The notes beneath the pieces were generated by a model. The model was not told where the DNA came from. It saw only the letters and a program-made list of their open reading frames with translations, and searched no databases. Positions 107 to 40,318 of a stretch of 64,000 nt of DNA are shown here, piece by piece. The stretch spans positions 124,001 through 188,000 of the forward strand of contig WIUZ02000003.1 in NCBI GenBank assembly GCA_015956445.1, given 5' to 3'. Made by a program: the position numbers and the translations under genes. Position 1 is the stretch's first letter. Each line of letters opens with the position of its first letter. This DNA comes from Thelephora terrestris (taxonomy: Eukaryota; Basidiomycota; Agaricomycetes; Thelephorales; Thelephoraceae).

Positions 107-2890
107 ATGGACATACAGCCCCTTTACGAGCTAGACAAGTCTTCGCCTCAATTTCCGGAGCAGTTGATACAACTGCTTCGTAATGAACAATGGATGGCGT
201 CCCTTCAATCATCTCCAGAGGGCGAGCTGGGGAAATTGATAGGCTACCTAGACAATGTGAGGATCACTCCAACATCAACTAAGCCCTGCTTATCATCCGC
301 AGATCCTCGATGGTCTGAATCCCGCAGAACAACCACAAGCGTTCGGAAGGTGCCTCCGAACATTGCGGAAGATTTGCGGCTCGAACAAGATTCTCCCCTT
401 GACTTATGAAATTTCCGGTAAACTTTCATTCAATTCCGACTACGCGGTTGCATTTGGCGGATTCTGTGACGCCTATACTGGGTCCCTTGGCCCCGATAAA
501 GTCTGCATAAAACGGCTTCGGGTATCCTCCACAGGCGATCAGGAGCTAGTCAAAAAAGTGTTTTATCTTCATTATCGTTGGTTATACCATCGCGTACTGA
601 CAAGCTCTGAAGTCACTCTGCAAGGAAGCGGTGGTTTGGAAACACCTCGATCACCCGAACATCGTGCCCTTCAAGGGGATCACCTTCGAGCCCCTCCAAC
701 TCGCGTCAGAATGGATACCTGGTGGAGAACTGAAAGAGTATATAAGGCGAAATCCTGACGCAAACTTGATCAGCCTTGTGGGTCTATTGGTCTGCACCTC
801 TGGCCTACATCTCATCCATTTTCAGCTGCTTGGCGTCGCCAAAGGCCTCGGCTATCTTCACTCGTGCAAGCTGATCCATGGAGATCTCAAAGGAGTGCGT
901 GCAACCCGCGCAATATCCACTACCTATGCTGATGCCGCGATTGACCCAGGCTAATATATTAGTCGATGCTGTCGGAAACCCACGAATTGTGGACTTTGGT
1001 CTTGCGACGATCGCGCGAGATTCAAAGTCGCTTGAAACTACGAACGACCATCAGGCAACCACACTCCGGTTCACTGCGCCTGAGCTACTGCAAGCCCGTG
1101 CACCCCATAGCAATGAATCCGACATATTCGCATTCGGGATGGTTGTGATCGAGGTAGGGGTTGATTGATCCTCCTCACAAAATAAACTCACCGGTTGATC
1201 AAGGTCTTCACCGGAAAGGTCCCGTTCAGTAAATTTATCTCTTACGCAGCCATGGCGAACATCATGAATGGGGTGCGTCCGGAGCGGCCCCTTCACCCCG
1301 GTCTCACGGATGACTTGTGGACATTGACCCGGAAGTGCTGGGAGGAGAATCCGCAGGACCGGCCACAGATTGATTCGGTGGTTACACACCTGTTAGTTTC
1401 TTCATCAATCAACCGACCATCTCTCATTTATTGATAACTACAGAAGTGCTTGCCAAGTTCCACAATCGACTTGGACACAAACTGCAGGACTGCCAAGGGG
1501 CGAAATGTCGCAAGCGAGCTCTCCCACCCTAAGCCCTAGCGGCGTGACTCCTTTCTTTCTATTTCCACCCTCCCCATCATCTCCTACATATTTCTTCGGT
1601 CGCGACACTATTTTCGAGGACCTATTGAGTTTTGCCGAACGGTCCGTGTCCGTCACACTGTACGGGGCGGGAGGCATGGGGAAAACAGCTATTGCGCTTA
1701 AACTCCTTCACCACAGCCGCATCATCAACAGGTTTGGTGCGCGCCGCTACTTCATGCGCTGTGGCGACCTCGAGGATTCACTAGAAAGTTTCCTTGGACG
1801 TTTATCCGAAACATTAGGCGTTCCCCTGGCCATGGACGTGGCGCAACTCCGATCAAATGTAGAGGCTTCTCCGTGTGTACTGGTGTTGGACGGCATGGAT
1901 TCTATCATCGACCCACGAGCTCATGGAGCAGCTGAAATTGCCAAGGCGATTGAAGAACTCGGTCAGTGTCCAAAAGTCTGTCTGCTCGCTACCAGCAGGA
2001 TGGATGCTAAGGTTCCAGACTTCCGCCGCATGGAAGTATCAACGTTCCCTGAAGAAGCTGCAAGAGACACCTTCCACAGTCACTGTTCCCTGGAGAGATC
2101 ACCTGCCGTCTACAACATCCTCGCGGAACTCGACTTTCACCCGCTTTCGATCGTGCTCCTCGCCAATGCCGTTAGCGAGAATAGGTGGGACGAGTCGGCC
2201 TTGTTGAAGGCGTGGGTCGGTAGAAAGACGTGTATACTCATGGCATCCGGTTACGGGAGCTTGGAGACCTACATCGAGTCGGCCCTTCGTACTTCAACTA
2301 TCCAAGCACTCGGGACCGCCGCACGCGAAACACTCGAGGCGATCTCGAATCACCCGGACGGTGTCCAAGAGTTTCAGCTATCGAAAATTTACCCAGAAAA
2401 AGATAGAATGGGGGATGCAGTCAATGCGCTATGCAAGTTCTCCTTGATGTATCGCCAAGATGGTTTTGTAAAGATGCATTCGCCATTCCGGCTTTATTTC
2501 CAAGATACTCGACTTACTACCAATTTAGGTCTGTCCCTTTCATTCCATCTGTTTTTTTGTCACGGGATAACGTTTCTCAATGGGTTTCCAGTAGTTCCAG
2601 AAGTCCAACCAAGCGAGGTCCACTCGGTTACGCCTGATGGAGAAAACCCAGCAAAATCGTGTTCGTGTCTCTTAATTCATCCTTTCGTGGCCGTACGTTG
2701 ACATCGCTTTCAAGCTGGTATTTCATTTACCCTCAGAAGAATACGATTAAGGCTTGGATCCATCATCAACACCGGCTCACGAAAAGTAAGTGCCGCAAAG
2801 TCTACACCGGTGAACAAATTTTTGATCGTCTCTGGAACCCTTGCGGCTCTAGAAGTCCTTGACCCCCTTCGCACCCCAGGAATCGACTAA
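107..2890 (+). CDS. NLR1: TKL kinase - STAND NTPase fusion, short form
   Basis: Predicted cytosolic signalling protein. Exons read as 107-256, 303-557, 613-777, 826-894, 950-1153, 1204-1391, 1444-2528, then one or two small 3-prime exons whose joints are unclear (stop near 2890). Kinase motifs in order: VCIK lysine, HGDLKG|ANILV catalytic loop (split by an intron), DFGLA, APE, WEENPQDRP. The NTPase part has the entry motif FFGRD, Walker A GAGGMGKTA, Walker B VLVLDGMD, CLLATSR and a GLPL-like FHPLSI. No LRR, WD or TPR repeats follow, so it is a minimal STAND protein. The kinase and NTPase frames differ in genomic DNA and are brought into phase by a 52-nt intron (1392-1443). The start ATG at 107 follows a leader shared with NLR2. 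Unlike NLR3-5 there is no upstream module in view, although the window begins only 106 bases earlier. Family seen; biological role inferred. Confidence 0.8.
1392..1443 (+). other. Frame-setting intron between kinase and NTPase of NLR1
   Basis: GTTAGT donor and ACAG acceptor, 52 nt. The kinase frame runs into a stop inside this stretch, while removing it joins codon CT|A and continues directly into the NTPase frame. The homologous stretch is 53 nt in NLR2 and NLR5 and 48 nt, read as exon, in NLR3 and NLR4. Confidence 0.7.
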
Positions 2891-3390
2891 TCCCACAACA
2901 CGTAAGGTAGACGTGCGAACATCTAGCCCGCCGCCGTCAACATTCGCTGCCCCAACCGGTTTCGCCAAATGATATTTGATACAGAAGCATCTGGAAGGTC
3001 CTCCTCCAAACCACGCGCTCACTGTCATTTCGTGTACGATTATAAATGATGTTTCGCGCCCCTTCACCTGTCTGCGTTTGCTGGCGCACGCCGCATCCAT
3101 AACGCATCTTTCTCTCCGTTCCGATTGGCCGGAGTGATTCATGTAGCTTAGCCTCCCCAGATCTCCTACGAAGATTCATCCGCCCATTACGCCATTCGGA
3201 CTACCCAAGGCCCGTAGGGGGCGTTGGTTTTCGAGTGGTCAAATTTCGCAATCGCGGAATCACGGAAGTCCCACTGTGAACCTGCTGAAGCCAATCCAGC
3301 CAGGTGGGTTTTACCGCGTCAAGCTAGGTCTATGTGGCCATCGGGGTAGATATGGTTTATCCAGGGAGAGCTACGTACACCAGGGAAATA
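2891..3390. other. Intergenic spacer after NLR1
   Basis: No coding stretch with recognisable motifs. The first part resembles the 3-prime flank of the other NLR copies (a spaced match to the sequence after 7209 around the 'gatacggaagca' string), consistent with tandem duplication. Nothing else seen. Confidence 0.4.
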
Positions 3391-4272
3391 TCAAGGGAGA
3401 TCTCCGCTCCGGGTAGGGCAATTGCCAACTGGTGTTGCGACAAGTTCAGTGGGCACGCGGTTTTTTACTATACGTGAGCCGGCGGCTGCGGCCGAAGGAT
3501 TCTGAGCCTCAGTCCACTGCCAGCAATTTTTGATCTCATCGTTGATTCCTAAGATCATTAGAACCATTTCCCAAGTTACAGGCACGGCATAGAAGTCGCA
3601 AGGCCATACTCTCTGATATCGTCGTTCCAACCCAACTTCAATCTCCGGCCGTCCTGTGGTTCGTAGGCTAGTGTGCGCTACTCGGTGAGTGTGCTCCTTC
3701 ATGAGCCAAAACTCCCCTGGGCTAACGCACAGGACGCAATATCGGCCCCACATTACTAGGACGCCGGGGAAGTCGGACATCACTCGTTTGCTTCCAGTTT
3801 GGTACAGATTGATCACCATCTTATGAGACGCTCCAACTCATGTGATTCGACACCTCTGCTGACGACTCTCCTTCATCTAACATCGGGTTCAAAGTTGGCT
3901 ACTTGTCCGCGATTTTCGGGACTCTCGCATACGGACAGTGGGCATGCAGGGGGTGAGGAAGGAGGACGATGATAAGGTTACGAGAATGGGCGCCTTCTCG
4001 GTCAGGTGGAGATCCGCAGCCTCTAACTTAATCGTAGACCGCAGGTGTGGACTTCGTGTGTCTGTGTTTGGCTGACGGACGGCCATATGCGAAGTAGGAA
4101 TAGGACGCCCGTGCGTCCGGAAGACTTCTGTCCCGGTAGAAAGATCGAATCCTATGATCTCCTTCCCCTGGTAATTACAGACGCTAGCGGGCAGCTTGCT
4201 GGGGGCGTATACTGACAAACTATTGGCCATGAGTCCGACAGTTGTATTCAAGATGGAGCTCCTCGAGGTCAT
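3391..4272 (-). CDS. Hypothetical protein, two open stretches
   Basis: A minus-strand open stretch 4272-3889 starts with a genuine ATG (MTSRSS) and is followed by a second one, 3819-3391. A candidate short intron could join them but I cannot confirm it. The first part contains QGKEIIGFDLSTGTEVF, which has the look of a beta-propeller blade. The second (GVLVMWGRYCVL) also looks strand-like. This could be a remnant of a propeller-type F-box protein like the one at 60551-62621, but no F-box is visible. I do not recognise it with confidence. Confidence 0.35.
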
Positions 4273-4504
4273 ATATCGTAATCGTGATCAATCTACTAGT
4301 GAGTTCCAAGTTCAGTTACGCTATCCGCCTCATCCGGTCGCGTGTTTTCCATGCTCGAAATATATGGAGTTTCATCGCGGGCTCGTAAATAGGACCATCC
4401 TGCCACCTCGCGTTTGATGTCATGTACTTCTGTTTTAAATGGCCATCCCTAGGGCCCTCTCCGCTAGCAACTCCTGGACTTGGGCGGTCTGACCAGGGCC
4501 GGTC

Positions 4505-7209
4505 ATGTCCACACAGCGTTTTGACGGGTTGGACAGGTTGTCGACTCAATTTCCAGAGCAGCTGAACCGACTACTCCATGATAGACAGTGGGTGGCGACG
4601 CTGGAGCTTGCCCCGGGAAATGAGCTGGAGGAACTGATAAGCCACCTAGACAGTGTAAGGTCAATTCTGACCCCCCAAAAAACACTACTTATCCTTCGTA
4701 GATCCTCGAAGGCCTGGATTCCGCAGGACAACCGTTCAGAAAGTGCCTCCACATACTGCAGAAGATTTGCGGCTCAAAGCAGATTCTCCCATCAACGTAT
4801 GAAGTTTCCGGTCAACTTTCGCTCGATTCCATCCGCACGATTGCATTCGGTGGATTCTGCGACGCCTATAGCGGAACCCTTGATCAAGAAAAAGTTTGCA
4901 TAAAACGGCTTCGGATATCCCTCACAGGTGATCAGGCGCTGGTTAAACAGGTATTTCATCCCCATTTGCTTCGTTTAGACTGTCATTTCCTGACAAGCTC
5001 TTGAGTCACTGTGCAAGGAAGCTGTGGTGTGGAAACACCTCGATCACCCAAATATCGTCCCCTTCAGGGGTGTGACCTTCGACCCCCTCCAACTCGTCTC
5101 AGAGTGGATACCTGGTGGGGAATTGAAAGAACATATACTAAGGGGAAATACCCACCCAAACCTGATTAACCTTGTGAGTCCATCACATTCCACCTCCAAC
5201 CGGCACCTCATCCTGCCTTCAGCTGCTTGGTGTTGCCAACGGTCTCGGTTATCTTCACTCACGCAACGTGATCCACGGAGATCTCAAAGGAGTACGCCCA
5301 ACTCGCCCAACTCCCACTGCGTATTCTGATGCCGTGATCGGCATAGGCTAACATACTGGTCGATGCGGCCGGCAACCCACGAATAGGGGACTTTGGCCTT
5401 GCCACGATCGCGCGAGATTCTAATTCTCTTTCAAGCACTGGCGATCATCGGGGTACCACACCCCGATTCACTGCGCCTGAAATTCTGAAAGACATTGCCC
5501 GCCACAGCAAGGAATCTGACATATTCGCATTCGGAATGGTTGTGATCGAGGTATGAGGCGATTGACCCACTCCCTACAAAATAAACTCACCGGTTTACTA
5601 AGGTTTTCACCGGCAGTGTTCCGTTCAGGGATTGCATTGTCTCTACAGCCATGCTAAACATCATGATGGGGTTGCGCCCGGAGCGACCCACTCACCCTGG
5701 GTTCACGGATGACTTGTGGACGTTGACACAGCAGTGCTGGGAGGAAGATCCGCAGAAACGTCCACAGATCGATTCGGTGATAGAACAAGTGTTAGTTTCT
5801 TCCTCAATCAACCGAAGAGACGTTCATTGATCAACGACTGCAGAAGCGCTTACCGAGTTCACCACTCGATTTGGAAACAACCCATCGATTCGCATTGGTG
5901 TGGAATCTCGCAAGCGAACCCACCGGCCTCACCACTGCCAGATCTTGGCGAAGCTACCCTCTTTTTTCTATTTCCACCCTTTCCAAAAGCCCCCGCACAT
6001 TTCTTCGGCCGCGAGAGTATTCTTGAGGACCTTTTGAGTCTTGTCGAACGATCCGCATCTTTCGCGCTGTATGGAGCGCGGGGCATGGGGAAAACTGCGA
6101 TTGCGCTTAAACTCCTCCACCACCGCAAAATCGTGAGCAATTTTGGCATACACCGCTACTTCGTACGCTGCGACAACTCCATCGATTCGCTGGACGACCT
6201 CCTTGGGCGTTTATCGGATGTAATAGGCTTTCCTCAACCCAGGAACCTGGCCCAACTCCTATCACATCTGGAGGCTTCTCTTCCTTCTATACTGGTGTTG
6301 GACGGCATAGATTTTATCATCGACCCACTATCTTCTGGGGCAGCCGAAATCGCAACAACCATCAAAGAACTCGGTCTGTGTCCAAGAGTCTGTCTACTCT
6401 CCACCAGTGGGATGGACCCCAAGATTCCAGGCTTCCGCAGCATGCAAGTATCAAACCTCTCTGAAGAAGCCGCACGAAACACCTTCTACAATTATTGTTC
6501 TCTACAGAGATCAGATGAAATCGACGACGTCCTCGCAGAACTCGACTTCCACCCACTTTCGATCGTGCTTCTCGCCAGTGCCGTAAACGAGAAGGAGTGG
6601 ACCGAGCCGGAGTTGCTGGAGGCATGGGATAATGGAACCGTGTATATACTCGAGGCGTCCGGTCGGGAGAGCCTGGAGGACAACATCGAGTCGATCCTCC
6701 GTACTCCTACCATTCAAGAACTCGGGAACGCCGCACGCGAAACCCTCGAGGCCATCGCAAATCACCCGGACGGCGTCCAAGAGATTCATTTGTTGAACCT
6801 TTTCCCAGAAATAAAAGAATTAGGGCGTGCAGTCAATGCACTGTGCAAGTTCTCCCTGATGTATCGCGAAGACGGTTTCATAAAGATGCATTCGCCATTC
6901 AGGCTCCATTTCCAATATCGTCTGCCCGCTACCCAAGGAGTGGAGCACGCACTGGTCAGACTTGATGGCGTAAACAGGGTGAAACTGTGTTTGTCTCCTA
7001 TTCTATCCCTTCGTTGCTTCATGGTAACAATGATTTGAAGTCGCTATCAAATCCGCTGTCAAAAAAATCTCGAATTCCGCGAAAAGTAAGTACCCAAAGT
7101 CTGTATGCCATGGACACTTCGTCAACCATCTCTAGGATTCCTCGATCTCCTTCTGATCCCCCGAACCAACCAGCGCAATCGCGCGCGGGACAGGCCAACA
7201 AACACGTAG
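4505..7209 (+). CDS. NLR2: TKL kinase - STAND NTPase fusion, short form
   Basis: Second copy of the fusion. Exons 4505-4654, 4702-4950, 5006-5173, 5223-5291, 5347-5550, 5603-5790, 5844 onward, with small 3-prime exons ending at a TAG at 7207-7209 (tail motif RFLDLL, matching the other copies). Kinase residues look intact: VCIKRLR, VIHGDLKG|ANILV, DFGLA, APE. The NTPase has Walker A GARGMGKTA (an R where paralogues have G), Walker B ILVLDGID and FHPLSIVLLA. The 53-nt intron 5791-5843 brings the NTPase into frame. The first exon (MSTQRF...) replaces the upstream module of NLR3-5, so this is a two-domain form. The leader 4440-4504 is shared with NLR1, showing that the two were duplicated together or from one another. 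The joints in the last 300 nt are uncertain. Confidence 0.8.
5791..5843 (+). other. Frame-setting intron between kinase and NTPase of NLR2
   Basis: GTTAGT donor, GCAG acceptor, 53 nt. Homologous in place to the NLR1 intron. Without splicing the kinase frame stops within it. Confidence 0.65.
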
Positions 7210-9753: not shown

Positions 9754-11360
9754 CTATCCACCACCGACGATCCGGACAGACTCGAGTTTTGCCCCTCTCC
9801 GCGCCCTCGCTACCCTCATCCTCATCACATTATCAACATTCAATCCCTTCTCCCCGTTGGTTCGAATCACAAGTTCCTTCAGTCTGGGGCAGACCGGCGT
9901 GTTCTGTGGATTCATGTCTGGGTCCAGAGCGCTAATGAAGGGAGCCAAGGTTTCGCGCCCGGCAATTGTGAGAGTGCGTAGGGCCCTCATGGGTAGAAGC
10001 AACTGGAAAATAACGTTCCGGGCCAGATTGGTAGTATTGGTGACCTCGAGCCGGTCGATCGTGGATGTTTTGAACCAGATAAGGAATTCTGGCACCAAGA
10101 CCGACATGAAAACTAGGGAGTTATTAGAAGCGATGTGGGCGTGGCCGTTCGGTCCGGTGAGTTGGATCTCCCAGCTCCACTTTTCAACGTGAAAAAGAAC
10201 TTGACTGAAGTTGAGGAAGTTCTGGAGGTTTTCGAGCGATCTAGGGAGATGGTCCTCGATCCGGGAGTGTTGTTCAATCCGGGTTTCTAAACTGGCGCCG
10301 ACTGGTATGGAAAGGTGACCGATCAGGGGGGAGGTCTGTTGACTCCCACGTACGATAAACTTCTTGAGAGATGTCAGGGACAATACTCGTTCATTTCGCT
10401 CGCCGTGGACCAAGGGTACAGAACTGAGGCCGATTTCACGGAGGTGAGGTGCAGATTCGAAGAAGTCGAGGAGTTGCGTAACTGAGATGAATCCCGGTGG
10501 CACGAACATCAGCGCAAACGAAGTAAGGTTGACCATGTTTCTCCAAGGCAACTTTGTGCGGACATATCGTAGATCCAGTTCGCGCAGGGAAGAGAGGTCT
10601 CCATCAAAGAGGGTGGTTGGAATCTCAGGGCAAAGCAGCGGTCGATTTAAGTTGAATTCCATCGTCAGGCTTTCGAGAAGAGGTGCAGGATGAGAAAGTT
10701 GTAGGGTGATGTCTTCGATGCTGTTCGGCGATAACTGAATTTCGAGGGATCTAAGGCGGCTGACAGCACGAAGGTCGATTTTGAAGAAGGGATCATTGGG
10801 AAGTAAACGCCGGTCCCGGGACATAGTCAAGTCAAGGGGGGAGGATTTGGATCGTTCGAGGTATGCACGCGTTTGCTCTGGGTACTTGCAATCGAGATGA
10901 GTCCACAGAGAGGAGCGCGATGTGAACACCTCCCTCCAAGTGCGGCACACGTGGGTCAATGCGATTGGCCCTGGACGTTCAAAGTTGTACCAGTAGTAGT
11001 CTGGGATGAGGGCAAGGATTTCATCGGGGATCTTGTTGATCGGAGCCAGCGTGTTCCTCAAGGAACGAATCAAGAGGAGGACTTCCGAAGCATCCCGCTC
11101 AAGGACGGCGACCTAAAACCCGGAACGATCTGGTCACTATCCAAGAAGCGTTCATTGCGACGATTCCTTTCACCTCATCGTGGGTCAATCCGATAGGAGC
11201 GCTGTGGACCAAGATTTCAGTTATCCGTATGATGCTCGTGGTAATCGTGGTACCTTCGGCTCAGAAATAGATTCTGTAACTCTTTCTTAGTCGTGCATAG
11301 GAGAGATGATATCAAAGATCCCGGGCTGATATTGCACTCTGTATCAACGGAGGCAGACAT
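9754..11360 (-). CDS. F-box protein (lineage 1), looks whole
   Basis: Predicted SCF ubiquitin-ligase substrate adaptor. The first exon starts at ATG 11360 (MSASVDTE...), followed by two short introns and a tiny exon (APIGLTHDE), then a long last exon to 9754. The F-box reads NKIPDEILALIP ... ALTHVCRTWREVFTSRSSLW, followed by about 300 residues with a leucine-rich, strand-helix look typical of Agaricomycete F-box/LRR-like proteins. A longer open reading upstream would start at a non-ATG codon; the spliced ATG start is chosen because the same three-exon layout occurs in the paralogue at 33512. It lies antisense between NLR2 and NLR3, so its 3-prime end faces NLR2. Target of the adaptor is unknown. 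Confidence 0.8.
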
Positions 11361-14389: not shown

Positions 14390-17300
14390 ATGGCACCCAA
14401 AGTCCAACCAGCATGGAAGATATACGAAGAGTGAGCTTCTGAATTCGCTGTTTAGATATCGTGCTCATCACACTTTCCGGGGTTTCCCTCACAGACAGAT
14501 GGAATCCCTTTGTTACGGTCATGCGCTATGGTAACTCCCCTTTTCCAATAGTCGTACATGAGGTCTGAGGAGGCCGCAACTCCAGGGAACCAACACCCAC
14601 AAGTAAATACACCCGGGTCAGCATAGGAGACGTGGGTTTCATCCGACAAGGCCGATTTCATTTGTTGTTCTCCGCTGGTCTCCCCTTGGGAAAACGCAAA
14701 TTGGGAGTCGATGTACCCAACACGTTTGAACATTTGCGAATTGGAACAACAGAACCAGGAGGGCCTCGAGACCCTGGCTGCGTAGCAGCAAAGACTTCTC
14801 GACATGCTGAAACCAAAATAGATGTCACCGTGGCTACTGCAAAGTGCGTTCCACCCCTCAGAAAATCTCCCCCATAACCCCAATTGCGCATCACCCAGGC
14901 CCCTGCAACTCGACGCGGACTTCTCGTACGAGTTCACCGGGCATAGTGGCGCCGCGCTGACAACGACGCACTCAACATATAACGAGGATTCTCAAATGGA
15001 CACCGAGTTCAGAGACTACACTAAACGGTACTACAAGTCTTGGGTTAAATTCGCTAAAGACAAGAAGTACGGAACAAACCTGCGACCCGTTCTCATATCC
15101 GGTTTCGACATGGCTAAAGATTTCTCAATGATGGCATATGCCACCTCCCATACGTCTGTTCAAGCCGGCGCAACTGTTTCTACCCCGATGTTTGGATCTG
15201 GTTCGTGGGTGTGGCGCACAGTATGTAAGCCCCATTCCAAACATGGGCCACAGGAAATTCCACCAGGTCTTCAGTCCTCGCCATCGGGATCCGCACAAAG
15301 CCCTTCCAATACTACTTCCACCGAATTCAATCAGTGTGTCTTTATCCGGTATTACACGCTCCGCGAGGGGCTCTTCCCCAAGGTTATTCGGGCAAGCGCG
15401 GGACCACACAGCCTTGGTTCTGGGGAAAATCAAGGGGACTACTTCCCCGAGCTTACCATGCAGTCTGAACCCGTATCTATGGGTGATGAAGAGGACACGA
15501 ACGACGCCGGCAACGAGTCACATAAGGTCACTCCGGTCCTTTGCACGTTCTGCAGTTTCCGCTCTGATACTTCACTCCAGGATGAAGGACACGACAGTTG
15601 GGATGCCATCGCAGAATACGTGTTCCGGGTAACTCCCCCCTCCTCATATCGTTGCTTGACCATCTAACCCCATGACGGAAGAATTCAAAAGCTAAAAGGG
15701 TTCTATTACACCATAAGGATCTAGTGGCGATTCGAGCGGTAGGCCATTCAACCTCAGTGATTTATGAACTCTCACACTTGAGCAGATGGGACGCGAGAGC
15801 GACATTTCATCCATATTGGCAACACATAAGCCACATATCGCTGTGGACGAGGACGGAGGTGAGCCTCCGCCGAGTTCATCGTTTGGCGAATCATGCCTCA
15901 TTCGTTTCAGTGGGAGGGATCACCTTTAAAAGTGATGCACTCCCATCCCCGACAGCCAAGATGGATCGAACACGGAATCAGTCTCATAATCAGGGCGGTA
16001 CGCTCCATTTTGTTACCTGCCTTTCTCGTCATCCCCTTGGAGAGTACTGACTATTCTTGTCAAGGATCATCTCACGACGATACTCGCGGTCGTTTCGTCG
16101 GCAAATCGCTTTCAACCCTCGACAAGTTAGACAGGTCGTCAACTAAATTTCCAGAGCTGCTGGTCCAATTACTGCACGAAGAAGAATGGACAGGGACCGT
16201 TATGCTTGCCTCAGAGGACGAGACGCAGGCAGTGATAGGTCGTTTAGATAATGTAAGGTTCATCTCAACTCCAACTGAACCCCCACTTATCGCCTGTAGA
16301 TCCTCGACGATCTAGATACCTCAGGACAACCGTTTGGAAAATGCCTCCAAGTATTACAGAAAATCTGCGGCGCAAAGAGGGTCCTCCCGTCGACTTATGA
16401 GATCTCTGGCAGACTTTCGCTGTCCTCCTCCACGCCGATTTTTGGCGCATTCTGTAACGTACACACTGGCTTCCTTGGTCCCCAGGAGGTTGGCATAAAA
16501 CGGTCCCGGATAACCCCCACAACCGACCACAGACCGGTTGAACAGGTATTCTTTCCTCGTTGTCTCTATTTATACTGTCGTGCGCCATGCCCTAACATGT
16601 TTTGAAGGCACTCTGTGAGGAGGCTGTGGTGTGGAAACACCTGAGTCACCCGAACATCGTGCCCTTCAAGGGTGTCACCTTCCGGCCCCTCCAACTTGTA
16701 TCAGAGTGGATTCCTTGCGGGGAAATAAAAGAATATATAAAGGAAAATCCCCAGGCAAACTTACTCGATCTTGTGAGACCTTTCGCCTTCCACCTCTGAC
16801 CGACATCTCACCCTGCATTAGCTGCTCGGCATCGCCAAAGGTCTCAATTATCTACACTCACGCAACATCATCCATGGTGATCTCAAAGGAGTGCGTTCCA
16901 ACTTGCGCAACTTCCACTGCCTATGCTGATCTTGTCATGGACACAGGCTAACATCGTAGTCGACACGACCGGCAACGCACAGATTTTGGACTTCAGTCTT
17001 GCGTCGATCACGCTAGATTCGCAATCGCTTGCAAGCACTACCGACCAACGAAATGCCACAGTCAGATTCACTCCGCCCGAAATACTGAAAGGTCTTGCAA
17101 ACTACAGTAAGGCATCCGACGTATTCGCGTTCGGGATGTTTGTGATCGAGGTAGGAGGTAATCAAAATACTCTCGTACAAAATAAACTCACTTGTTCGTG
17201 AAGGTTTTCACCGGCAGTGTTCCGTTCGGCGATGCCATTTCCAGTATAACGATGACAAAAATTCTGAAGGGGATGCGTCCGGAGCGGCCCACCCACCCGG

Positions 17301-20090: not shown

Positions 20091-20092
20091 TA

Positions 20093-26466: not shown

Positions 26467-29400
26467 ATGGCACCAAAAATCCAGCCAGCATGGAAGATAT
26501 ACGAAGAGTGAGTTTCTGAGTACACTGTTCACTCTCGTACCTACCTCACTTCTCGGGATTCCCTTCACAGCCAAATGGAATGTCTTCGTTACGGTCATGC
26601 TCTCTGGTAGCACCTCTTTTTCGATGGTGGCAAATGATATCTAAGGTTGGAACTTTAGGGAACCGACACCGACGAGCAAATACAACCGTATCAGCATAGG
26701 AGACGTGGGCTTCATCCGTCAAGGTCGATTCCACCTGTTGTTCTCCGCTGCTCTCCCCCTGGGAAAACGCAAACCGGGAGTCGACGTTCCCAACACATTT
26801 GAACAACTGCGAGTTGGAACAACGGAACCGGGCGGACCTCGACCCGCTGGCTGCGTCGCGGCAAGGACTTCTCGACGAGGGCAAGCGAGTGCTGAGAACA
26901 CAGAAACCACCGTGCTGTGCGTTCTATCTCCCACACTATCCCCCATTTTTTCCTACTCAGATATCACTCAGGCCCCTGCTACCTGGCACAGATTTCACAT
27001 ACGAGGGTACCGGGAACAGTGGCGCAGCGCTGATAACGAGACACTCAACTTACAACGAAGATTCTCAATTGGACTCCGAGTTTAGGCAATACACTAAACG
27101 GCACTACAAGTCTTGGATCACGTTCGCTAAAGAGAAGAAGTACGGAACAAACTTGCGACCCGTCCTCGTATCCGGTTTCGACATGGCTAAAGACTTCGCG
27201 ATGATGGCATATCATAACATGGATCCCTCTGCTCAAGCCCGCACGACTATCGCTACTCCGATGTTCGGTTCCGCCACCGGATCTGGTTCGTGGGTTTGGC
27301 GTACAACGTGTAGTCCCCACGTCAAACATGGCCCGCAGGAACTATTACCCCCGGATATGCAGTCCTTGCCATCTGGATCTAAATCCGCGCAAAGCCCGTC
27401 CAAAAGCCCTTCCACCGAGTTCAATCAGTGCGTCTTCGTTCGGTACTACACGATGCGGGAGGGCTTCTTCCCAAAAGTTATTCGGGCCACCGCGGGGCCA
27501 CACGAGCTGGGTTCTGGGGATAATAAAGGGGACTACTTCCCTGAGCTGGTAACGCAGTCTGAACCTGAAGCCATGAGCGGTGACGAGGAACGAAGAGACG
27601 CCGGCTCTGGATCAGATATGGTCATTCGATTCTTTTCACGTTCTTCAGTGTCCGCGCTTACACTTGCCTCCAGGATGAAGGACCTGACAGCTGGGATGCC
27701 ATCGCAGACTACGTGTTCCAGGTAATTCCCCTCTCACATATCGTCGCTGGACCGCCTAACCCCCGTAATGAAAGAACTCGAAGGCTAAAAGGGTATTGTT
27801 GCACCACCAGGATCTAGCGGGGCTTCGCGCGGTAGGCTGTTTAGCCCTAGTGATTTACCGATTCTCACATCTCAGCAGTTGGGACCTGAGAGCGACATGG
27901 CATCTTTGTTGACAACACACAGGCCGCGTATCGTTGTGGACGGGGACGGAGGTGAACTTCCGCAAAGTTCGTTGTTTGGTGAACCGTGCCTCATTTTCTT
28001 CAGTGGGGGGGATCACCGGTGGAGGGGCTTTAGCTTCACCCCAGGTTTCCAGGATTGGTTCACCACGGAGTGAATCCCATGCGAGCGGTACGCCCCATTT
28101 TGTTACCCGCCTTTCTCATTACCGGAGTGGGGAGCACTGAATATTTTCGTCAAGGATCGCCCCGCGGCGAAATTCGTTACATCAACCCATCGATCGCGGC
28201 CCTTGAAAAATTAGACAAGTCATCACCCAAGTTTCCGGACCGGCTGGACCAATTACTCAACAACGGACGATGGATAACGAACCTTATGACTGCCCCAGAG
28301 GATGAGATGGGGAAACTGATAGATAACCTAGACGAGGTAAAGTCTGTTCCAAAACGGACCGAAGCCGCACTTATCGCTCGTAGATTCTTGATGATCTAGA
28401 ACCGACAGGACGACCGTTCGGAAAGTGCATTCAAACGCTGCAGAAAGTCTGTGGCGCAAAGAGGACCCTCCCGTCGAGTTACCAAATTTCTGGCAGGCTT
28501 TCGCTTTCTTCCTCCCCGCCGATTTTTGGCGCATTTTGTAACGTCCATACCGGTTTCCTCGGCCCCGAAGAGGTTGGCATAAAGCGGTTCCGGGTAACTG
28601 CCGCAGGCGACCCGGCGCCGGTTGAACAGGTATTCCTTCTTCGTTACCTTTATTCGTCCTGTCACGCGTCACGCCCTAACATGTTTTGAAAGGCCCTCTG
28701 CGAGGAGGCTGTGGTGTGGAAACACCTGAGTCACCCGAACATCGTTCCCTTCAAGGGTGTCACCTTCCGGCCTCTCCAACTTGTGTCAGAGTGGATGCCT
28801 TGCGGAGAAATAAAAGAATATATAAAGGAAAATCCCCAAGCAAACTTACTCAGCCTTGTGAGACCTTTTGTCTTCCACCTCCGACCGACATTTCACCCTG
28901 CATTAGCTGCTCGGCATCGCCAAAGGTCTCAATTATCTCCACTCACGCAACATCATACATGGAGATCTCAAAGGAGTGCGTTCCAACTCGCGCAACTCAC
29001 ACTGCCTATGCTGATCCTGTTGTGGGCGCAGGCTAATATAGTAGTCGACACGACCGGCAACGCACAGATTTTGGACTTCAGTCTTGCGTCGATCACGCTA
29101 GATTCGCAATCGCTTGCAAGCATTACTGACCAACGAGCTGCCTCACCCCGGTTCACTCCACCCGAAATACTGAAAGGCCTTGCAGACTACAGCAAGGCAT
29201 CCGACGTGTTCACGTTCGGGATGTTTATAATCGAGGTAGGAGGCGATCGACCCGCTCCCCATCAAATGAGACTCACTGGTCAATCAAGGTTTTCACCGGC
29301 AGTGTTCCGTTCGGTGATGCCATTTCAAGTATAACGATGACAAAAATTCTAAACGGGATGCGCCCGGAGCGGCCCACTCACCCTGGTTTCACGGATGACC

Positions 29401-31218
29401 TGTGGGCGTTGACACAGCAGTGTTGGGAGGAGGAACCACAAGACCGTCCATCGATGGATGTGGTGGTAGAACGAATGTTAGTTCTGCAACCAGCCGAAGA
29501 GTCTCCAATCATTGATGGCTCCCGAAGCACTTCCCAAGGTGTGGACCTGTTCTGGGCACAACAACCCGCCGATCCACGCTCGCATGGGATGTCACGAGCG
29601 GTCCCATCGAGGGGACCCACGCGGATGCAAACCCTTGCTGCAGACGTTCCTCCTTCCATCCCGAAAGCTCCCGCACAGTTTTTCAACCGCGATGATATAC
29701 TTGAAGACCTGTTGGATCTCGCCGCACGGTCCGCGCCTGTTGCACTGTATGGAGCGGGGGGAATGGGGAAAACCGCGATTGCGCTTACGCTCCTCCACCA
29801 TCAAGAGATCGCGAACAGGTTCGGCAAATATCGCTACTTCATACGCTGCGACAACCTCGAGAATTCGGTGGACGACCTCCTCGGGAGTTTATCCAAGGCG
29901 GTAGGCTTCCCGCGACCGAAGACCGTGGCCCAACTCGTTTCGCATTTCGAGGCAGCTCCTCATTGTATACTGGTGTTGGATGGCATAGATCTTATCCTCG
30001 ACCCACGAGCTTCCAGAGCGGCAGAAATCGCCACGACGATCGGAGAGTTTGGTCGGTGTCCGAAAGTCTGTCTTGTCGCTACCAGCAGGGTGGATTTCGA
30101 GATTCCAGGCTTCTGGCGTATGAAAGTATCAAGACTTCCCGAGGAAGCCGCGCGACGCACCTTCCACAGTTACTGTTCCCTGGAGGAGTCTGCCATGATC
30201 GACGGCATTCTTTCCGAACTCGACTTTCATCCGCTTTCGATCGTGCTTCTCGCCAGTGCCGTAGAGGAGAACGGGTGGGACGAGCCGGCGTTGGTGGAGG
30301 AGTGGAATGATGGGAAGACGAGTATGCTGAAGGCATCCGGCCACCAGAGCCTGGAGGACAACATTGAGTCGATCCTTCTCACTCCGGCCATTCGGGAGTT
30401 AGGGCCTACCGCTCGGAAAACGCTCGAGGCGATCGCAAACGCCCCGACCGACGTCCAAGAGTCTGAACTATCGAAAAAATTCCCGGGAATAAACGGAGTA
30501 GAGGATGCCGTCGAAGTGCTGTGCAAGTCCTTCTTGATGTATCGCCAGGATGGGCTGGTGAAGATGCACTCACCGTTCCGACTTTATTTCAAACATACTC
30601 GCCGCGCTGGCAATCCAGGTTTGTCCCTTTCCTTCGTTCTGTGTTTTTTTTTAGTCACGAGATGACAGTTCTCGGTGGGTTTTCAGGAGTCCCAGACGTC
30701 CAACCTCCGAAACCAGACGTTCAACCCCAGCAAAAAGACGTCCGACCTCCGCCACCGGATGTTCAACCTTCGGAACCGGGTGTCCAACCTCTACGAGCAG
30801 ACGCCAAACAGCCGCAAACTTCTGGCAAGCGCCCTCTTCCGACAAGGTGATTGACTGGATTTGAATGTATCTTTAGTCTAAGCGTTGACCTCCCTCCAAC
30901 TCGGCAGACCGAGTGCTGATGCACCAAGGGAACATCCTCCCACCACAGTTGATGGCGGAGGTACGCCGGTGCCTTCCTGTCCGTGTCTCTCATCTCATCC
31001 TTTCGTGCCTTGACGGTAACGCCTATTTGCAGCTAGGGCATCATCCTTGTCTAAAACATTTGGATCCGTGAAGAACCGAGTCAAGAGCGGGTTCAAGAGT
31101 GAGTACCATGAGGTTAAACCCCCATGTGCACTTCATTGATTGTTTTTAGAATTATCTTGTTTTTAGAATTCCTTGACCAGCTTCCCGTATCTGGGATCAT
31201 TCGTCCGCATCGCACGTA
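26467..31218 (+). CDS. NLR4: N-terminal module - TKL kinase - STAND NTPase, PDVQP tail
   Basis: Closest relative of NLR3. Module: MAPKIQPAWKIYEE, GDVGFIRQGRFHLLF, SWITFA, VLVSGFDM. The linker exon ends ESHASG and continues in phase into the kinase exon beginning SPRGEIRY at about 28162. Kinase: VGIK lysine kept, HGDLKG|ANIVV, DFSLAS instead of DFGLA, PPE instead of APE. NTPase: FFNRDD (family FFGRD), Walker A GAGGMGKTA, ILVLDGID, FHPLSIVLLA. The kinase-NTPase junction is read through (48 nt at 29477). After the NTPase, a splice at 30619 leads in phase to an extra exon (about 30689-30849) made of PDVQPxx-like heptads, absent from NLR3 and NLR5. The last exon ends KKFLDQLPVSG... with TAG at 31216. 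Probably functional on sequence grounds. Confidence 0.76.
29477..29524 (+). other. Exonised former intron in NLR4
   Basis: 48 nt, GTTAGT at the left, CTCCCG where the acceptor would be. In frame and stop-free, as in NLR3. Confidence 0.65.
30689..30830 (+). repeat. 21-bp coding repeat (PDVQPxx heptads) in NLR4 tail
   Basis: About six degenerate copies of a unit such as GACGTCCAACCTCCGAAACCA, translated as PDVQPPK, PDVQPQQ, KDVRPPP, PDVQPSE, PGVQPLR, ADAKQPQ. NLR1 has one partial unit (PEVQPSE) at the matching place, so the array probably expanded from a single copy. Confidence 0.7.
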
Positions 31219-31890
31219 GAATGAGCGTCCACACATGTAACCTGCCGTCGTTAACGGTCCTTAACACCAACAGCGGCGTCAAATGATCCCAGTCTCGGCC
31301 AGTTTGTGCACGCGTTTGCACGATTCCAATTAACGCTTTGCATTTCATCCACCTGCCCCTCTCTTGCGCCCGCCCTCCATCTCGCACTTGGTCTTTCGAA
31401 TCCCTATTCCCACCAACCAGAGTCATCTATAGATCGCATTCATCGGCATATCGACACGTTACATACTATTTTGTGTAAATAACAGGCTTATCATATCTTG
31501 GATATCCTTGATGTTTTTCCTTAACTCCGTGCGGAAGCAATGCCAACTCAGCTGGTGCAACGAAGGGAGGTCTTCGTCAAACCGGCTCTAAATTCCGAAC
31601 GCCTGTTCTATGGAACACGAGATACAACCTGCGCAACGCACTTTCACGCAATGACAGTGGTTAGATCTGCAAAATTACATTCACGTATGACTCGAAAGTA
31701 GGCCCATGTCAAGACCGTCTCATACAAAACCGCATACAAGCCCAATCGTCCAAGTTCTAACAGTAATGAAAAGACATTGCGCAAGTAGGTGCGCGCCCAG
31801 TGCACCCACCCGCCCATAAGTCACCCTGGAAGAGATAAAGATTGGGCTGAGACAACCACCAACACACCCCCACCACAGTCTTCTCCATCG
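31219..31890. other. Spacer between NLR4 and F-box
   Basis: No gene recognised. The stretch 31800-31890 is the 3-prime flank of the antisense F-box gene. Confidence 0.4.
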
Positions 31891-33512
31891 CTAACCCTCT
31901 ACGATCTGGACCGACTTGATTTTCGCCCCCCTAAGTTCTCTCGCGGCCTCCATAATCTCGATATCGGGTCCCACCGTGACCCTCCCATATATGGGAAGAA
32001 TGATTGTCTCCGATCTGGGAAGAACGAGTGTCTCCAATCTGGGGCACACCAGCACGCTCTCGGAATTCAGGTCTGGATTCAGAGCCTGAATGAATGGGCA
32101 TGGTGTAATGCATGGAGAGATGGTGAGAGTGCGTAGGAGATTCATGGGGGAAAGTAACCGATGAGCGAGCTCGTGGGGAAGACGTTCACGGCTGGTGATT
32201 TTGAGGATCAATTCGACCGTTGAGGCGGTTGAGGTGTTGACCCAGTCCAGGAATCCCAGTAGCAGGCGAGTTGGGCCACCTCGGAGAGTCGAATTCATAT
32301 TGACTTCGCCGCTTGGCCCAATCATCTCAATTTGCCAATCCAGATCTTGAACGTATAGGAGAAGTTTGGTGAAATTGAGAAGGTTCCTGAGGTTGTTGAT
32401 GGATATGGGTAGGTGATCGTCGACCCCCGAGTCCGGGTTTATGTTAATAGACAAGTTGGCACCGACAGGGATCAAAAGGTGACAGATAAAGGGGGAGACC
32501 GGTTGGTCGTCGTATATTTCTAAACATTTTAGACATGCGAGGGAAACCAGCCGTTCATCTTGGTCGATGGAAGTCGGGGATACGTAAAGAAGCGTGACTT
32601 CCTGCAGGCGTGGGGCACTTTCAAAGAAGTCAAGAAGTTGCGTGGTGGAAATCTCTCCCGGTGGCGTGTGAGCCAGCTCAAAAATAGTGAGGTTGACCAT
32701 GTTCCTCCAAGGTAACTCCGTGCGGATACGAGTCAAATCCAAGCCTTTCAGGGAGGAAAGGTCTCCGCCAAAAAGAGTAGCCGTCAACGCATGGTGGGGT
32801 TCTTCCCGGGGTATGTATATTGACAGATTTTCAAGAAGAGGCGCAGGATGGAATAGTCGTGGGGTTATGCATCGGAGATATTTTTCTGCCGTTACATCGA
32901 TGTGTAGGGATACGAGGCGTTTGACAGCACGGTGGTCGATTTGGAAAAAGGGATCGTCGGGGGGCAAAGGCCCACCCCGAGATAGAGACACGTTGATGGG
33001 GGAGGATTTCGAGCGTTCGAGGAAAACTCGAGTTTTGTCCGCGTTATTGCAATCGACACGGGTCCACAAGGAGGAGCGGGACGTGAACATCTCCCTCCAG
33101 GTACGGCACACGTGGGTTAATGCGATCAGTTGTGAATCTATCCAGTAATACCAGAGATCTGGGATGAGGGTAAGGATCTCTGGAGGCATTTTGTTTATCG
33201 GAGCGAGCGCGTTCCTCAAGGACCGAATCAAGCGAAAGACTTCTGCCGCATCCTGTTCGATGACTGCGATCTAGGGTGCAACACACTTTGTTCACTACCC
33301 ATGAAGTATACCTTTGATCTATCGGTCTCACCTCATCCTGGTTCAAGTCGATGGCAGTCCTGTGGGTTCAAATTTCAGCCACCTTCCATAAGTCGCATCC
33401 CCTCACGAGCGTACCTTCCGCTAAGTGCCACGTCCTGTAATGCTTTCTTAGTTGCGCGTAGGAGAGAAGATGCTTGGCTGAGATGGCAATCGTTGTTGAC
33501 AGGGGTCGACAT
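31891..33512 (-). CDS. F-box protein (lineage 1), looks whole
   Basis: Paralogue of the gene at 11360-9754, with the same layout: exon 1 33512-33415 (MSTPVNNDCHLSQASS...), a tiny exon 33359-33332 (TAIDLNQDE), then a long exon starting IAVIEQDAAEV and ending at 31891. Phase is kept at both introns. F-box: NKMPPEILTLIPD ... ALTHVCRTWREMFTSRSSLW; the remaining roughly 350 residues look LRR-like. Predicted SCF adaptor with unknown target. It lies tail-to-tail with NLR4 and head-to-head with the remnant at 33730. No internal stop seen. Confidence 0.8.
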
Positions 33513-35707: not shown

Positions 35708-35841
35708 GGCGCTAGTTTTGCCCAAAACCCAGGTCACGTTCCAAGGGCCACATGATGCACGATTCGCATATATAAAACGGGAAGGGTGGGCGCCCTCTCT
35801 TATCTTCGCCCCATCGTTACTCCCATACGTGAGACTTCCTT
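35708..35841 (+). promoter_or_regulatory. Conserved promoter of NLR5
   Basis: ACCCAGGTCACGTT, then TATATAAAACGGGAAGGGTG and GGGCGCC, ATG at 35842. Same order and similar spacing as at the other three genes. Confidence 0.6.
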
Positions 35842-38800
35842 ATGGCACAACCGGCATGGAAGATATACGAAGAGTGAGTTTTCTGGTCAAATGTCGTGCC
35901 CACCTTCTCATTCTGGGGGCTTTCTTTCACAGACGGATGGAACGCCTTCGTTACGGTCATGCTCTATGGTAGCATATCCCTTCATCGATAGTTACGGATG
36001 GCATCTGATGTTGAAACTCCAGGGAACCCTCACCCACGAGCCAACACACCCGTATCCGCATAGGAGATGTGGGCTTCATTCGTGAAGGGCGATTCCATTT
36101 CATGTTCTCCGCTGCTCTCCCTCGAGGAAATCGCACCCTAGGGGTCGACGTCCCCAGCACATTCGTGGAATTGACCGTTAGAGATGGAGAAACGCAACAG
36201 GATCAGCCTCGAGCCCCTGGGTGTGTTGGAGCGATGACCTATCGGCGGGTCGTCGCAGGCCTTCGTCTTTCTTTCACAGAGCCTGTTATCAAGTGCGTCT
36301 ATCTCTCGAACCGTCATCCATTGGTTTTAAGCGATGGTCACTCAGGTCCCTGGAACCTGGCCTAAACTTCTCAGTTGAGCACACAGGCGAGAGTGGTGCA
36401 GCGCTTACAACCAGGCACGAATCATACAACGAAGATGCTCAACTGGACATGAGGTTTAGAAAATACACTAAGCTCCACTACGAGTCCTGGGTTGAGTTCG
36501 CCCGTTTAAAGGAATACGGAGAAAACTTGCGACCCGTTCTCGTATCCGGTTTTGACATGACTAAGGACTTCGCAATGATGGCATACTCTAACAGCAATAC
36601 CTCTGTTCAAGCCGGCGCAGATTGTCATACCCCAATGTTTGGTTCCGCTTCTGTCTCTGCCGAGTTCACATGGCGCACAGTGTGTACCCCCCACTTCAAA
36701 GACGGGCCAAAGGAACGCAGACCCCCTGGCCTTCGGCCCTCGCAAGCGGGTGCAGGAACGCCTCCCACCGAATACAACCAATGTATCTTCGTCCGGTACT
36801 ACACTATGCGTTCAGAGTTTGGGATATTCCCCAGAGTAATTCGGGCAGCCGCGGGACCAAAGGACCTTGGTTCGGGGGAAAACAGGGGGGAAACCTTCCC
36901 TGAGTTGACCGTGCGGTCTGGTGCTGGACCCGTGAGTGCTGAGAGGGACCCCGGGGAACAGTGGAGTCTCGCCACCGACGATACTGGTCCCGAGCCAGAT
37001 ATGGTTATCCGCAACGAACCATATGTATGGTTTTTTGCATGTCCTTGTGTCTCCGCTCTGACGCTTCCTTCCAGGATGAAGATCGTGACAGTTGGGATAT
37101 CGTCGCAGACTACGTGTTCCAGGTAACTCCCCGTACCCACATCGCCGCTGGGCCACCTGACCCTCGTAATCGTAGAACTCAAATGCCAAAAGAGTTTTGA
37201 TGCACCATAAGGATCTAGCGGGGATTCTTGTGGTAGGTGATATAACCTCAGCGGATTCTAACTTTCACGCTTTGGCAGATGGGAGATGAGACCGACATCT
37301 CGTCTCTATTGGCAAAACACAAGCCAACGATCGTCGTGGACGAGGACGGAGGTGAACTTTAGCTAAGCTTCATCGTTTGGTGAATTATACCTCATTTTTC
37401 TCAGTGGGGGGGATCATTTCCGGAGAGGGTGCACTCTCATCTCAGGCCGCCACAATGGGTTCACCGCCGGATGAGTCTCGTGATGAGAGCGGTGTGTTCT
37501 GTTTTGTTACTTACCGCTCTCATTACAAGTACTGACTGTGTTTATCACTCAATAGTTCCTGGCGATGATACTCGCAGTCCTTACGCCGATCGATCGCTCA
37601 TAGCTCCTGACGATTCAGAAAGGACATCTACTAAATTCCCGGAGGAGCTATACGAACTACTCCACGATACACAACGACTAGCCGCCCTTGAGGTTGCCCC
37701 GGAGGGCGAGCTGACGTTACTGATAGGTCATCTCGACAATGTAAGGCCCACTCCCAACACCAATTAGGTCCCACTCATTGCTCGTAGATGCTTGATGGTC
37801 TAGATCCTGCAGGACAACCATTCAGAAAGTGTCTCCATATATTGCAAAAACTTTGCGCCTCAAAGATGATGCTCCCATCAAGTTATGAAGTTTCTGGTAA
37901 ACTTTCGTTCAATTCCACCGACGCGATTGCATATGGTGGATTCTGTGACGTCTATGATGGGTCCCTTGATCTCGAAAGAGTTTGCGTAAAGCGGCTCCGG
38001 GTATCTGCCGCAGGAGACCGGGCGCTAACTAAACGGGTATTTCATCCTCATTTGCTTCGGTCGGACTCTCGCGCCCTGACAAGCTCTCGAGTCACTCTGC
38101 AAGGAGGCTGTGGTGTGGAAACACCTCGATCATCCAAATATTGTCCCCTTCAAGGGTGTAACCTTCGACCCCCTCCAGCTCGTGTCAAAGTGGATACCTG
38201 GTGGGGAATTGAAAGAATATGTAGTAAGGGGATCTTCTCAAGCAAACCTAATCAGCCTTGTGAGCCCATCACTTTGCATCCCCAACCGACACCTCATCCC
38301 GCCTTCAGCTGCTCGGTGTTGCCAAAGGTCTCGGTTATCTTCATTCACGCAACGTGATCCATGGAGATCTTAAAGGGGTGCGTGCAACCCGCACAACTCC
38401 CACTACCTATTCTGATGCCGTGATCGGCGCAGGCTAACATACTAATCGATGCGAACGACAACCCACGAATTGTGGACTTTGGTCTTGCAACGGTCGCGCG
38501 GGATTCAGATTCGCTCGCTTCCACTAGCGGCCAAATGGGTACCACAGCCCGGTTTACTGCACCTGAAATCCTGAAAGGCCTTGGCCGCCCCAGCAAGGCA
38601 TCCGACGTGTTCGCATTCGGGATGGTTGTGATCGAGGTATGAGGCAATCGACCGACTTCCTACAAAATAACTCACCGGTTGATCAAGGCCTTCACCGGTA
38701 GAGTTCCGTTCAGTGGTTGCATTGGCTTTAAAGCCATGACAAATATCCTCGCCGGAATCCACCCAGAGCGACCTATTCATCCCGGTCTCACGGATCAGTT

Positions 38801-40318
38801 GTGGACATTGACACAGCAATGTTGGGAGGAGGAACCATATGACCGGCCGAGTATTGATTCGGTAATAGAACAACTGTCAGTTCCTTCTTCCATCAGCCGA
38901 TGGGTCTCTTATTCGTCGATGACTACAGAAATGCTTGCCCGGTACAGCACTCGACTTGTACGCAACCAGCTGAGCCGCACGGGTTTGAAATTTCGCAAGC
39001 GAGCCTCTCCTCGCTAAGCCTTCCTTTTGACGAAGTGACTTCCTCATCGCTACTTCCATCCCTCCCGCAAGCTCCCGCATATCTTTTTGGCCGTGACGCT
39101 ACTCTCGAGGACCTTTTGAACCTTGCTGAACGGTCCGCGTCCGTCCTGCTTCACGGAGCGGGAGGCATGGGGAAAACTACCATTGCGCTTACACTTCTCT
39201 ACCACAATCAAATCCTGAACAGGTTTGGCAACCACCGCTACTTCGTGCGCTGTGGCAACCTCGAGGATTCGTTGGACGGTTTCCTTGGGCGTTTATCTGA
39301 TGCAATAGGCGCTCCCGAGCCCATGGACTTGGCACAACTACGATCACGGTTCGAGGCTTCTCCCTGTCTACTGGTGTTGGATGGCATAGATTCTATCATC
39401 GACCCACGATCCTCTGGAGCAGCCGAAATTGCCACAACGATCGAAGAATTCGGTCGGTGTCCAACAGTCTGTCTGCTCGCTACCAGCAGGATAAAGGCCA
39501 AGATTCCAGGCTTCCGCCGGATAAAAGTATCAACGCTCTCTGAAGACGCTGCAAGAAGTACATTCCACAGTCACTGTTCCCTAGGGAGATCAGTTGTAGT
39601 CGACAAGATCCTCGAAGAACTCGACTTTCACCCGCTTTCGATCACGCTTCTCGCCAGTGCTGTGAGCGAGAACGGGTGGAGCGAGTCGGCGCTTGAAGAG
39701 GCGTGGAACAATGGAAAGACATCTATGCTCAGTGCATCCGCTCGCGAGAGTCTGGAGGACACGATCGAGTCGACCCTTCGAACTCCGACCATTCGAGAAC
39801 TCGGAACCACCGCCCGGGAAACACTCGAGGCGATTGCAGATTACCCAAAAGGTGTCAAAGAGGTTTATCTGTTGACCATCTTCCCAGAAATAAAGGGAAT
39901 AGGGGATACAGTCAATGCGCTGTGCAAGTTCTCCCTGATGTACCGCGAAGAAGGTTTCATAAAGATGATTGCACCATTCCGACTTTATTTCCAGTACACT
40001 CGACACCACTCTACCAATTCAGGTTCGTCCCTACTGATTTCGTTACGGGGCGGAATCTCTAACTATTCTGTGGCTTGACGAAAACATTAATTTGCAGGTG
40101 ATGATGCATCCGTCATCAAAAAAGTTCGATCCGTGAAGGTTCTACTAGAGAGTAAGCACCACGAAGGCTGCACATTGTATACACTTCACTAATCGCCCCT
40201 CGAACTCTTTTTGGCTGTAGAACTCTCTGACTTCCTCCACGTCACCGGAACGAATCGACCCAATCGCGCCAGGATGGGCCTACAGCCCCGTAGCCTGCCT
40301 GCCGTCAAAGGCCGCTGA
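35842..40318 (+). CDS. NLR5: N-terminal module - TKL kinase - STAND NTPase
   Basis: Three-part gene. Module: MAQPAWKIYEE, GDVGFIREGRFHFMF, SWVEFA, VLVSGFDM, NEPY|DEDRDSWDIVADYVFQ. The linker exon SPPDESRDES continues in phase into VPGDDTRSPYADRS of the kinase exon. Kinase residues are intact: VCVKRLR, VIHGDLKG|ANILID, DFGLA, APE. Exon 38688-38875 is followed by a 53-nt intron (38876-38928) and the NTPase exon 38929-40022: FGRDA, Walker A GAGGMGKTT, LLVLDGID, FHPLSI. Then small exons 40098-40151 and 40221-40318 (KLSDFLHVTG...; TGA at 40316). Unlike NLR3/4 it has both a canonical DFG and the junction intron, so it combines the module with the NLR1/2 type of kinase-NTPase part. All exon joints I checked keep phase. 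Confidence 0.82.
38876..38928 (+). other. Frame-setting intron between kinase and NTPase of NLR5
   Basis: GTCAGT donor, ACAG acceptor, 53 nt. The donor hexamer equals that retained in the exonised NLR3 stretch, which supports loss of the acceptor as the cause of exonisation there. Confidence 0.68.

Follow-up and report, generated by a model that had tools for sequence, protein, structure and literature searches.

A tandem array of kinase-STAND genes in Thelephora terrestris and diversifying selection on the putative pseudokinase of its sister genes

The window analysed here, a stretch of 64,000 nucleotides from the basidiomycete Thelephora terrestris (C23:124001-188000), carries a tandem array of genes in which a protein kinase is joined to a STAND NTPase, and related genes were sought in the one genome to which it belongs (40.6 Mb, 60 contigs). 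Gene models were obtained with a self-written spliced protein-to-DNA aligner, which placed five kinase-STAND genes (A-E) in the window, from the ATG of A at 107 to the modelled stop of E at 40318, as a sequence-only reading of this DNA had reported. The array proved to be larger, with a sixth copy, F, situated directly upstream of the window at about C23:119989-122791. In each gene an apparently TKL-type kinase is followed by a linker that varies between copies, the STAND NTPase and a short tail, and the TPR repeats seen in related genes are missing (Table 1). The core exons as modelled were stop-free in all six copies, four kinase introns were common to A-F, and the STAND was a single exon in each. 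In C and D the STAND lies in the same open frame as the last kinase exon; in A, B, E and F the join requires a short linker intron, and it is least certain in B, where this intron has 41 bases, and in E, where it has 38 bases and a GC donor. A tblastn comparison with a plasmid collection gave no match.

Alignment of the STAND domains showed Walker A, Walker B and HPLS motifs in all six copies, as expected from the earlier reading, whereas the ATSR motif that it had ascribed to all of its five genes was present in five of the six copies and replaced by STSG in B. The STANDs of the other five copies were 61-69% identical to that of E, compared to 45-47% for the next genomic relatives, indicating a similarity within the array that goes beyond chance. 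A profile of 20 STAND sequences searched against the PDB matched 24 distinct sequences at E ≤0.1, and the six top matches were NLRs, including NLRP1 (7crw, 1.6e-5), ZAR1 (6j5t, 2.3e-4) and NRC1 (6s2p, 4.3e-4), while ClpC and further ATPases appeared only from E 0.0056 on. Since animal and plant NLRs are ranked first, the array NTPase is best interpreted as an NLR-type STAND, the class to which it had already been assigned, and not as a member of a housekeeping family, an outcome that the sequence-only reading had allowed for. This profile search superseded a search with a single STAND sequence, in which the best E was 0.093. G36, G38, K39 and D108 were invariant in the 20 sequences, and the Pfam NACHT cut-off was passed by E, the other four window copies falling below it. 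At the expected winged-helix position, KM-x-x-PFRL was found in all six copies and MHS, which may be equivalent to the MHD of the winged helix, only in A, B and D.

A search of the genome with a compact STAND as the query listed 130 matches, reduced to 129 places after one merge, which is a lower bound. Of these at least 129 places, 106 were assigned by similarity to a TPR-type class, several of them with shorter frames, and Pfam TPRs were found in all four TPR-type examples checked; 23 of the places listed were compact. A kinase was found upstream of 17 of the 23 compact STANDs (six in the array, nine on contigs C1 and C12, and two on C6), and when the 106 TPR-type places were compared with 60 listed kinase places, none had a kinase match within 3 kb upstream. 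On C1/C12, four of the nine were modelled in one round and seven kinase models were available for reading motifs; on C6, L021 showed a plausible join, whereas that of L034 was unclear. Two compact STANDs on C5 had an MSP-type domain upstream, which scored over the Pfam cut-off in C5a and under it in C5b, neither gene being modelled end to end, and four of the 23 had no adjoining kinase match, although kinase matches lie 3.5 kb from one of these. A hidden Markov model (HMM) of the TPR tail found no match in the window, at L042 or at eight compact loci, with three of three controls detected, and a Pfam scan of the STAND frames returned neither WD40 nor ankyrin repeats, with no search aimed at either repeat. 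The C-terminal superstructure-forming repeats of a tripartite NLR were therefore not found in the array genes.

A tree built from 14 compact and 16 TPR-type STANDs (30 sequences) split the two types with 100/100 support on the dividing branch, and the array formed one clade. On these sequences, the compact STANDs are a clade apart from the TPR-type and lack its tail, and the array is a genuine branch within a large NLR-type repertoire, which agrees with the earlier description of a locally duplicated array in which a kinase is the N-terminal partner of an NLR-like switch. The region C5:398307-405440 (L015, L016, L045, L046) holds compact STANDs preceded by an MSP (VAP-like) domain instead of a kinase. 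Searches of the genome also listed pairs of matches with equal scores on different contigs (C39:28096 and C58:1781332; C42:18081 and C12:2760058; C18:349364 and C5:1193657), one of which was identical in the STAND tree, and these are perhaps haplotigs or recent segmental duplicates.

The kinase of A scored 151 bits with PF07714 (cut-off 23.1), higher than its 142 bits with PF00069, while the other copies were scanned in pieces only; the TKL label of the array kinases is one that we infer. The catalytic residues K, E, D, N and D were retained in all six array kinases, and the catalytic motifs were complete in A, B, E and F, with DFS in place of DFG in C and D, so that, judged by motifs, the kinase is predicted to be competent in the first four and possibly altered in the other two. 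The sister genes on C1/C12 differ at this position, with Glu replacing the Asp of DFG in all seven models (the motif is EYG in five, L022 having EYS and L065 EYC), which is the loss of a catalytic residue looked for in an integrated decoy, and the kinase of this set is probably dead. One of these genes, L022 (C1:636544-638825), is a kinase-STAND copy with an in-frame stop in its modelled kinase part, and intact relatives exist. On C6, L021 has DYG and L034 has DFG, and DFG was intact in all six free kinases picked as near matches.

In a 19-sequence kinase tree, a single origin of all fused kinases was rejected by the approximately unbiased (AU) test (p = 9e-5), a result carried by the two C6 kinases, and a clade uniting the array and C1/C12 kinases was not rejected (AU p = 0.065). 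Because the fused kinases do not form one clade, more than one kinase lineage appears to front one STAND lineage, and separate fusions of kinases to the compact STAND would depend on the C6 pair. That fungal NLRs exchange N-terminal domains is already published (PMC4986451). The genome gave 171 exon-level matches to PF07714, some of which certainly belong to other kinase groups, and many TKL kinases have likewise been reported for Laccaria (PMC2838846). Such numbers, together with the constraint on the array described below, would suit a duplicated family of signalling kinases that borrowed an oligomerising NTPase for a non-immune purpose, e.g. development or mating. We consider this unlikely, however, given that immune NLRs come first in the STAND profile search and that the sister genes diversify in the fashion of receptors.

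The array itself is under constraint in both the kinase and the STAND. Pairwise dN/dS (the ratio of nonsynonymous to synonymous divergence) was 0.17-0.42 in the kinase and 0.28-0.49 in the STAND, and the M1a/M2a site test on the six paralogues gave no positive selection in either (p = 0.37 and p = 0.26, respectively). The expectation of the sequence-only reading that these genes are fast-evolving was thus not borne out for the genes of the window, and the strong diversifying signal sits in sister genes outside it. In the linker, pairwise dN/dS was 0.43-1.28 on 41-66 codons that are poorly alignable. This variable linker, the tandem duplication of an NLR-type gene and the part that NLRs play as incompatibility genes in other fungi (PMC4986451) would all fit a het-like locus, at which alleles differing between strains trigger cell death on hyphal fusion, but the absence of positive selection among the six paralogues argues against such a locus and we regard it as rather improbable. 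A search of the genome for the HET domain gave no match but was equally silent in control genomes and is uninformative. A non-self or incompatibility role, as proposed earlier for the cluster, may apply to the array.

The lowest kinase dN/dS in the array (0.17) was that of the C-D pair, the two copies with an altered DFG and P-loop. Conserved yet altered kinases would fit a reading in which the array kinase were itself an integrated bait, as in the sister genes, and had merely not diversified recently, and kinase domains have been proposed as integrated decoys in NLRs of Sordariales (PMC12258605). The retention of the five catalytic residues in all six array kinases and of full motifs in four, along with the lack of selected sites in this domain, speaks against this, and we give the bait explanation of the array kinase a modest chance at most.

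The kinase of the C1/C12 sister set was tested on six of the seven models, L022 being dropped for its in-frame stop. Model M0 gave an omega of 0.98, and the comparison of M1a with M2a gave twice the log-likelihood difference (2dl) as 97.7, with 16% of codons at an omega of 6.1. The signal was significant in six of six jackknifes (2dl 46-98), compared to a maximum 2dl of 10.0 in 20 null simulations, one of which exceeded the nominal 5% line. A posterior above 0.9 was reached by 21 codons, 11 of them within codons 76-84 or 180-189 (19 of the 283 codons; p = 1e-9, with the windows picked after the sites were known and the posteriors naive). The patches were named helix C and activation segment by their position relative to kinase motifs in the sequence.

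Wrong splicing, frameshifts, misalignment or gene conversion could produce a signal of this sort, and some features of the data point that way: the models are computed, L067 was given an extra short intron, one model carried a stop, small gaps occur at codons 201-204, the helix-C patch crosses an exon junction, and the two halves of the pseudokinase yield different trees. Conversion of the STAND between L020 and L029 is also suggested, because synonymous divergence (dS) between these genes was 0.06 in the STAND and 0.21 in the kinase. On the other hand, codons 172-198 are in frame and gap-free, and changes at positions 1 and 2 outnumber those at position 3 in the patches. The signal also persisted without L067, in each half analysed on its own tree (2dl 32 and 54.5), without the helix-C patch (76.6), without the activation segment (46.5) and without both (22.1). 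An artefact is, on this evidence, very unlikely.

The same test was negative for the C1/C12 STAND, which appears conserved (four genes, with little power), and for the TPR-type STAND (eight genes), and it was positive for the TPR tail of the same eight TPR-type genes, one of them short (p = 2e-9). This is consistent with the selection already published for the repeats of fungal NLRs (PMC4986451). In the codon tests, the pseudokinase takes the role that the TPR tail has in the ordinary family. Because it is probably dead and diversifies near helix C and in the activation segment, the C1/C12 kinase is most likely a recognition or bait surface, and recognition in the sister set appears to have become the task of the pseudokinase instead of the TPR tail.

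Taken together, these results suggest that the array genes are NLR-type switches of the compact STAND branch with the kinase as their signalling end, and that the C1/C12 pseudokinase is a recognition or bait surface, a combined reading to which we give an even chance. In this mechanism, a nucleotide-loaded STAND would oligomerise and bring kinase domains together, and the gathered domains would trans-phosphorylate and then signal. The array kinase, by motifs the catalytically competent branch, would be the signalling (effector) end, the dead kinase of C1/C12 would serve as the recognition or bait surface, as the TPR tail would in the ordinary family, and array members may be the signalling partners of the C1/C12 sensors. 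A more specific scenario, in which an NLR branch gave up its TPR sensor and came to use an N-terminal pseudokinase as the bait for recognition (diversifying in the activation segment and helix-C patch), with the competent array genes as conserved signalling partners in a kinase-based sensor/helper NLR system, is tentative, and we would not call it probable.

Several observations weigh against the combined reading. The gene models are computed predictions. The codon tests revealed no diversifying surface at all in the array. All seven C1/C12 kinase models retain the catalytic-loop Asp and most also the beta-3 Lys, and because of the retained Asp their inactivity is a prediction. The AlphaFold model of the STAND, with a predicted local distance difference test score (pLDDT) of 54, was too poor for a fold search, and the winged helix is for this reason read from sequence position. 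In addition, the signal in the pseudokinase may not be special to its fusion with a STAND, and its fast evolution could stem from something besides recognition.

Plant pseudokinases such as ZED1 are baits for NLRs such as ZAR1, and the sister genes would resemble this system in using a dead kinase as a recognition surface, although the bait there is a separate protein and here it is joined to an NLR-type switch. Kinases are already known among the N-termini of fungal NLRs (PMC4986451, PMC9815663), as the PKinase class of Dyrka et al. 2014 (PMC4986451) and through the inclusion of PK_Tyr_Ser-Thr in the profile list of PMC9815663. The genes described here share with that class a kinase ahead of a STAND/NACHT-type NTPase and N-terminal domains swapped between lineages, and differ from it in the missing TPR tail, the six genes in one array and the fast-evolving pseudokinase of the sister set. 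In Sordariales, a kinase domain of NLRs has likewise been proposed as a bait, but 9 of those 12 PKinase decoys are C-terminal and they are PRD-4/CHK2-like (PMC12258605), whereas the kinase here sits at the N-terminus, is of TKL type and, in the sister set, is degenerate and measurably under diversifying selection. The fungal NB-TPR NLRs, represented in this genome by the 106 listed places that proved TPR-type where checked, have the same NTPase family and a TPR tail under positive selection, and the array and sister genes stand apart from them as a separate clade without that tail. In the literature searched, which held few subscription papers, no N-terminal pseudokinase joined to a TPR-less STAND and under measured diversifying selection was found. 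About 15% of basidiomycete NLR N-termini were annotated in the 2014 survey (PMC4986451). The association of a compact NLR branch with the numerous TKL-type kinases found in this genome would offer a testable link between kinase expansion and non-self sensing, and the sister genes point to a concrete candidate recognition surface, the activation segment of the pseudokinase.

Table 1 Features of the array and its neighbours (positions in the window)
Feature	Position	Strand	Remarks
Kinase-STAND gene A: N-terminal helical piece, TKL-type kinase, linker, STAND, short tail	107..2890	+	Spliced model; tail tentative
Kinase of A: VCIK, HGD, DFG and APE intact			PK_Tyr_Ser-Thr, E 3.7e-44
Kinase-STAND gene B: kinase motifs intact, STSG for ATSR	4505..7209	+	Linker intron and tail tentative
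F-box-like gene inside the array	9754..11112	-	PF12937, E 0.0033, 17.6 bits (cut-off 24.3)
FDM gene upstream of C, core only	14623..15535	+	SGFDMAKDFAMMAY family
Kinase-STAND gene C: DFS for DFG, P-loop GAF for GGF, PPE for APE	16109..18914	+	Start codon and tail tentative
FDM gene upstream of the pseudokinase gene, core only	20457..21235	+	Without a stretch found in other FDMs
STAND-less kinase gene: HGN for HGD, GFG for DFG	22892..23983	+	Pfam; no STAND match listed there
FDM gene upstream of D, core only	26696..27629	+	FDM family
Kinase-STAND gene D: DFS for DFG as in C	28196..31219	+	Start codon and tail tentative
F-box-like gene inside the array	31891..33270	-	PF12937, 24.2 bits (cut-off 24.3)
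FDM gene upstream of E, core only	36063..37012	+	FDM family
Kinase-STAND gene E: kinase motifs intact	37606..40318	+	Start codon and tail tentative; linker intron with GC donor
STAND domain of E	39059..40003	+	Passes Pfam NACHT, AAA and AAA_16 cut-offs; first profile row

The genes interleaved with the array had been described as F-box genes and a pseudokinase gene. The latter holds, since HGN and GFG mark the STAND-less kinase as a pseudokinase, and the two F-box assignments are likely at best because their scores fall under the Pfam cut-off. The sixth copy F had been overlooked, as had a gene of the FDM family that precedes the pseudokinase gene and each of C, D and E. The FDM family (SGFDMAKDFAMMAY) is conserved, has no credible Pfam match and gave 49 exon-level matches in the genome. 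All four FDM genes of the window lie on the same strand as, and upstream of, C, D, E or the STAND-less pseudokinase, and none was listed ahead of A, B or F. Elsewhere in the genome, 5 of 30 FDM genes were followed on their own strand by a kinase no more than 3 kb away, compared to 0.36 expected (p = 2e-4) under circular shifts with strand, which replaced a uniform null and were made with some contig extents guessed and a partial kinase list; the other 25 were not. An FDM protein and a kinase or kinase-STAND might conceivably form a functional pair. For the main exon of FDM, AlphaFold gave a model (pLDDT 34) too poor for a fold search.

Downstream of the array, the window contains closely similar repeated copies of a small gene at 46474-47454, 51420-52511 and 55408-56442 (- strand), and perhaps at 53964-54710; the one piece scanned gave no Pfam match over the cut-off. 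In a search bearing on a possible subtelomeric position of the array, the genome showed 45 exact (TTAGGG)4 sites, apparently none of them at a contig end. Many of these sites are paired in inverted, outward-facing orientation with a spacing of about 1.5-1.9 kb, or more in some pairs (for example, C1:3383656-3385342, C3:214487-216144 and C60:1504699-1506394), resembling an inserted element capped by telomere repeats.

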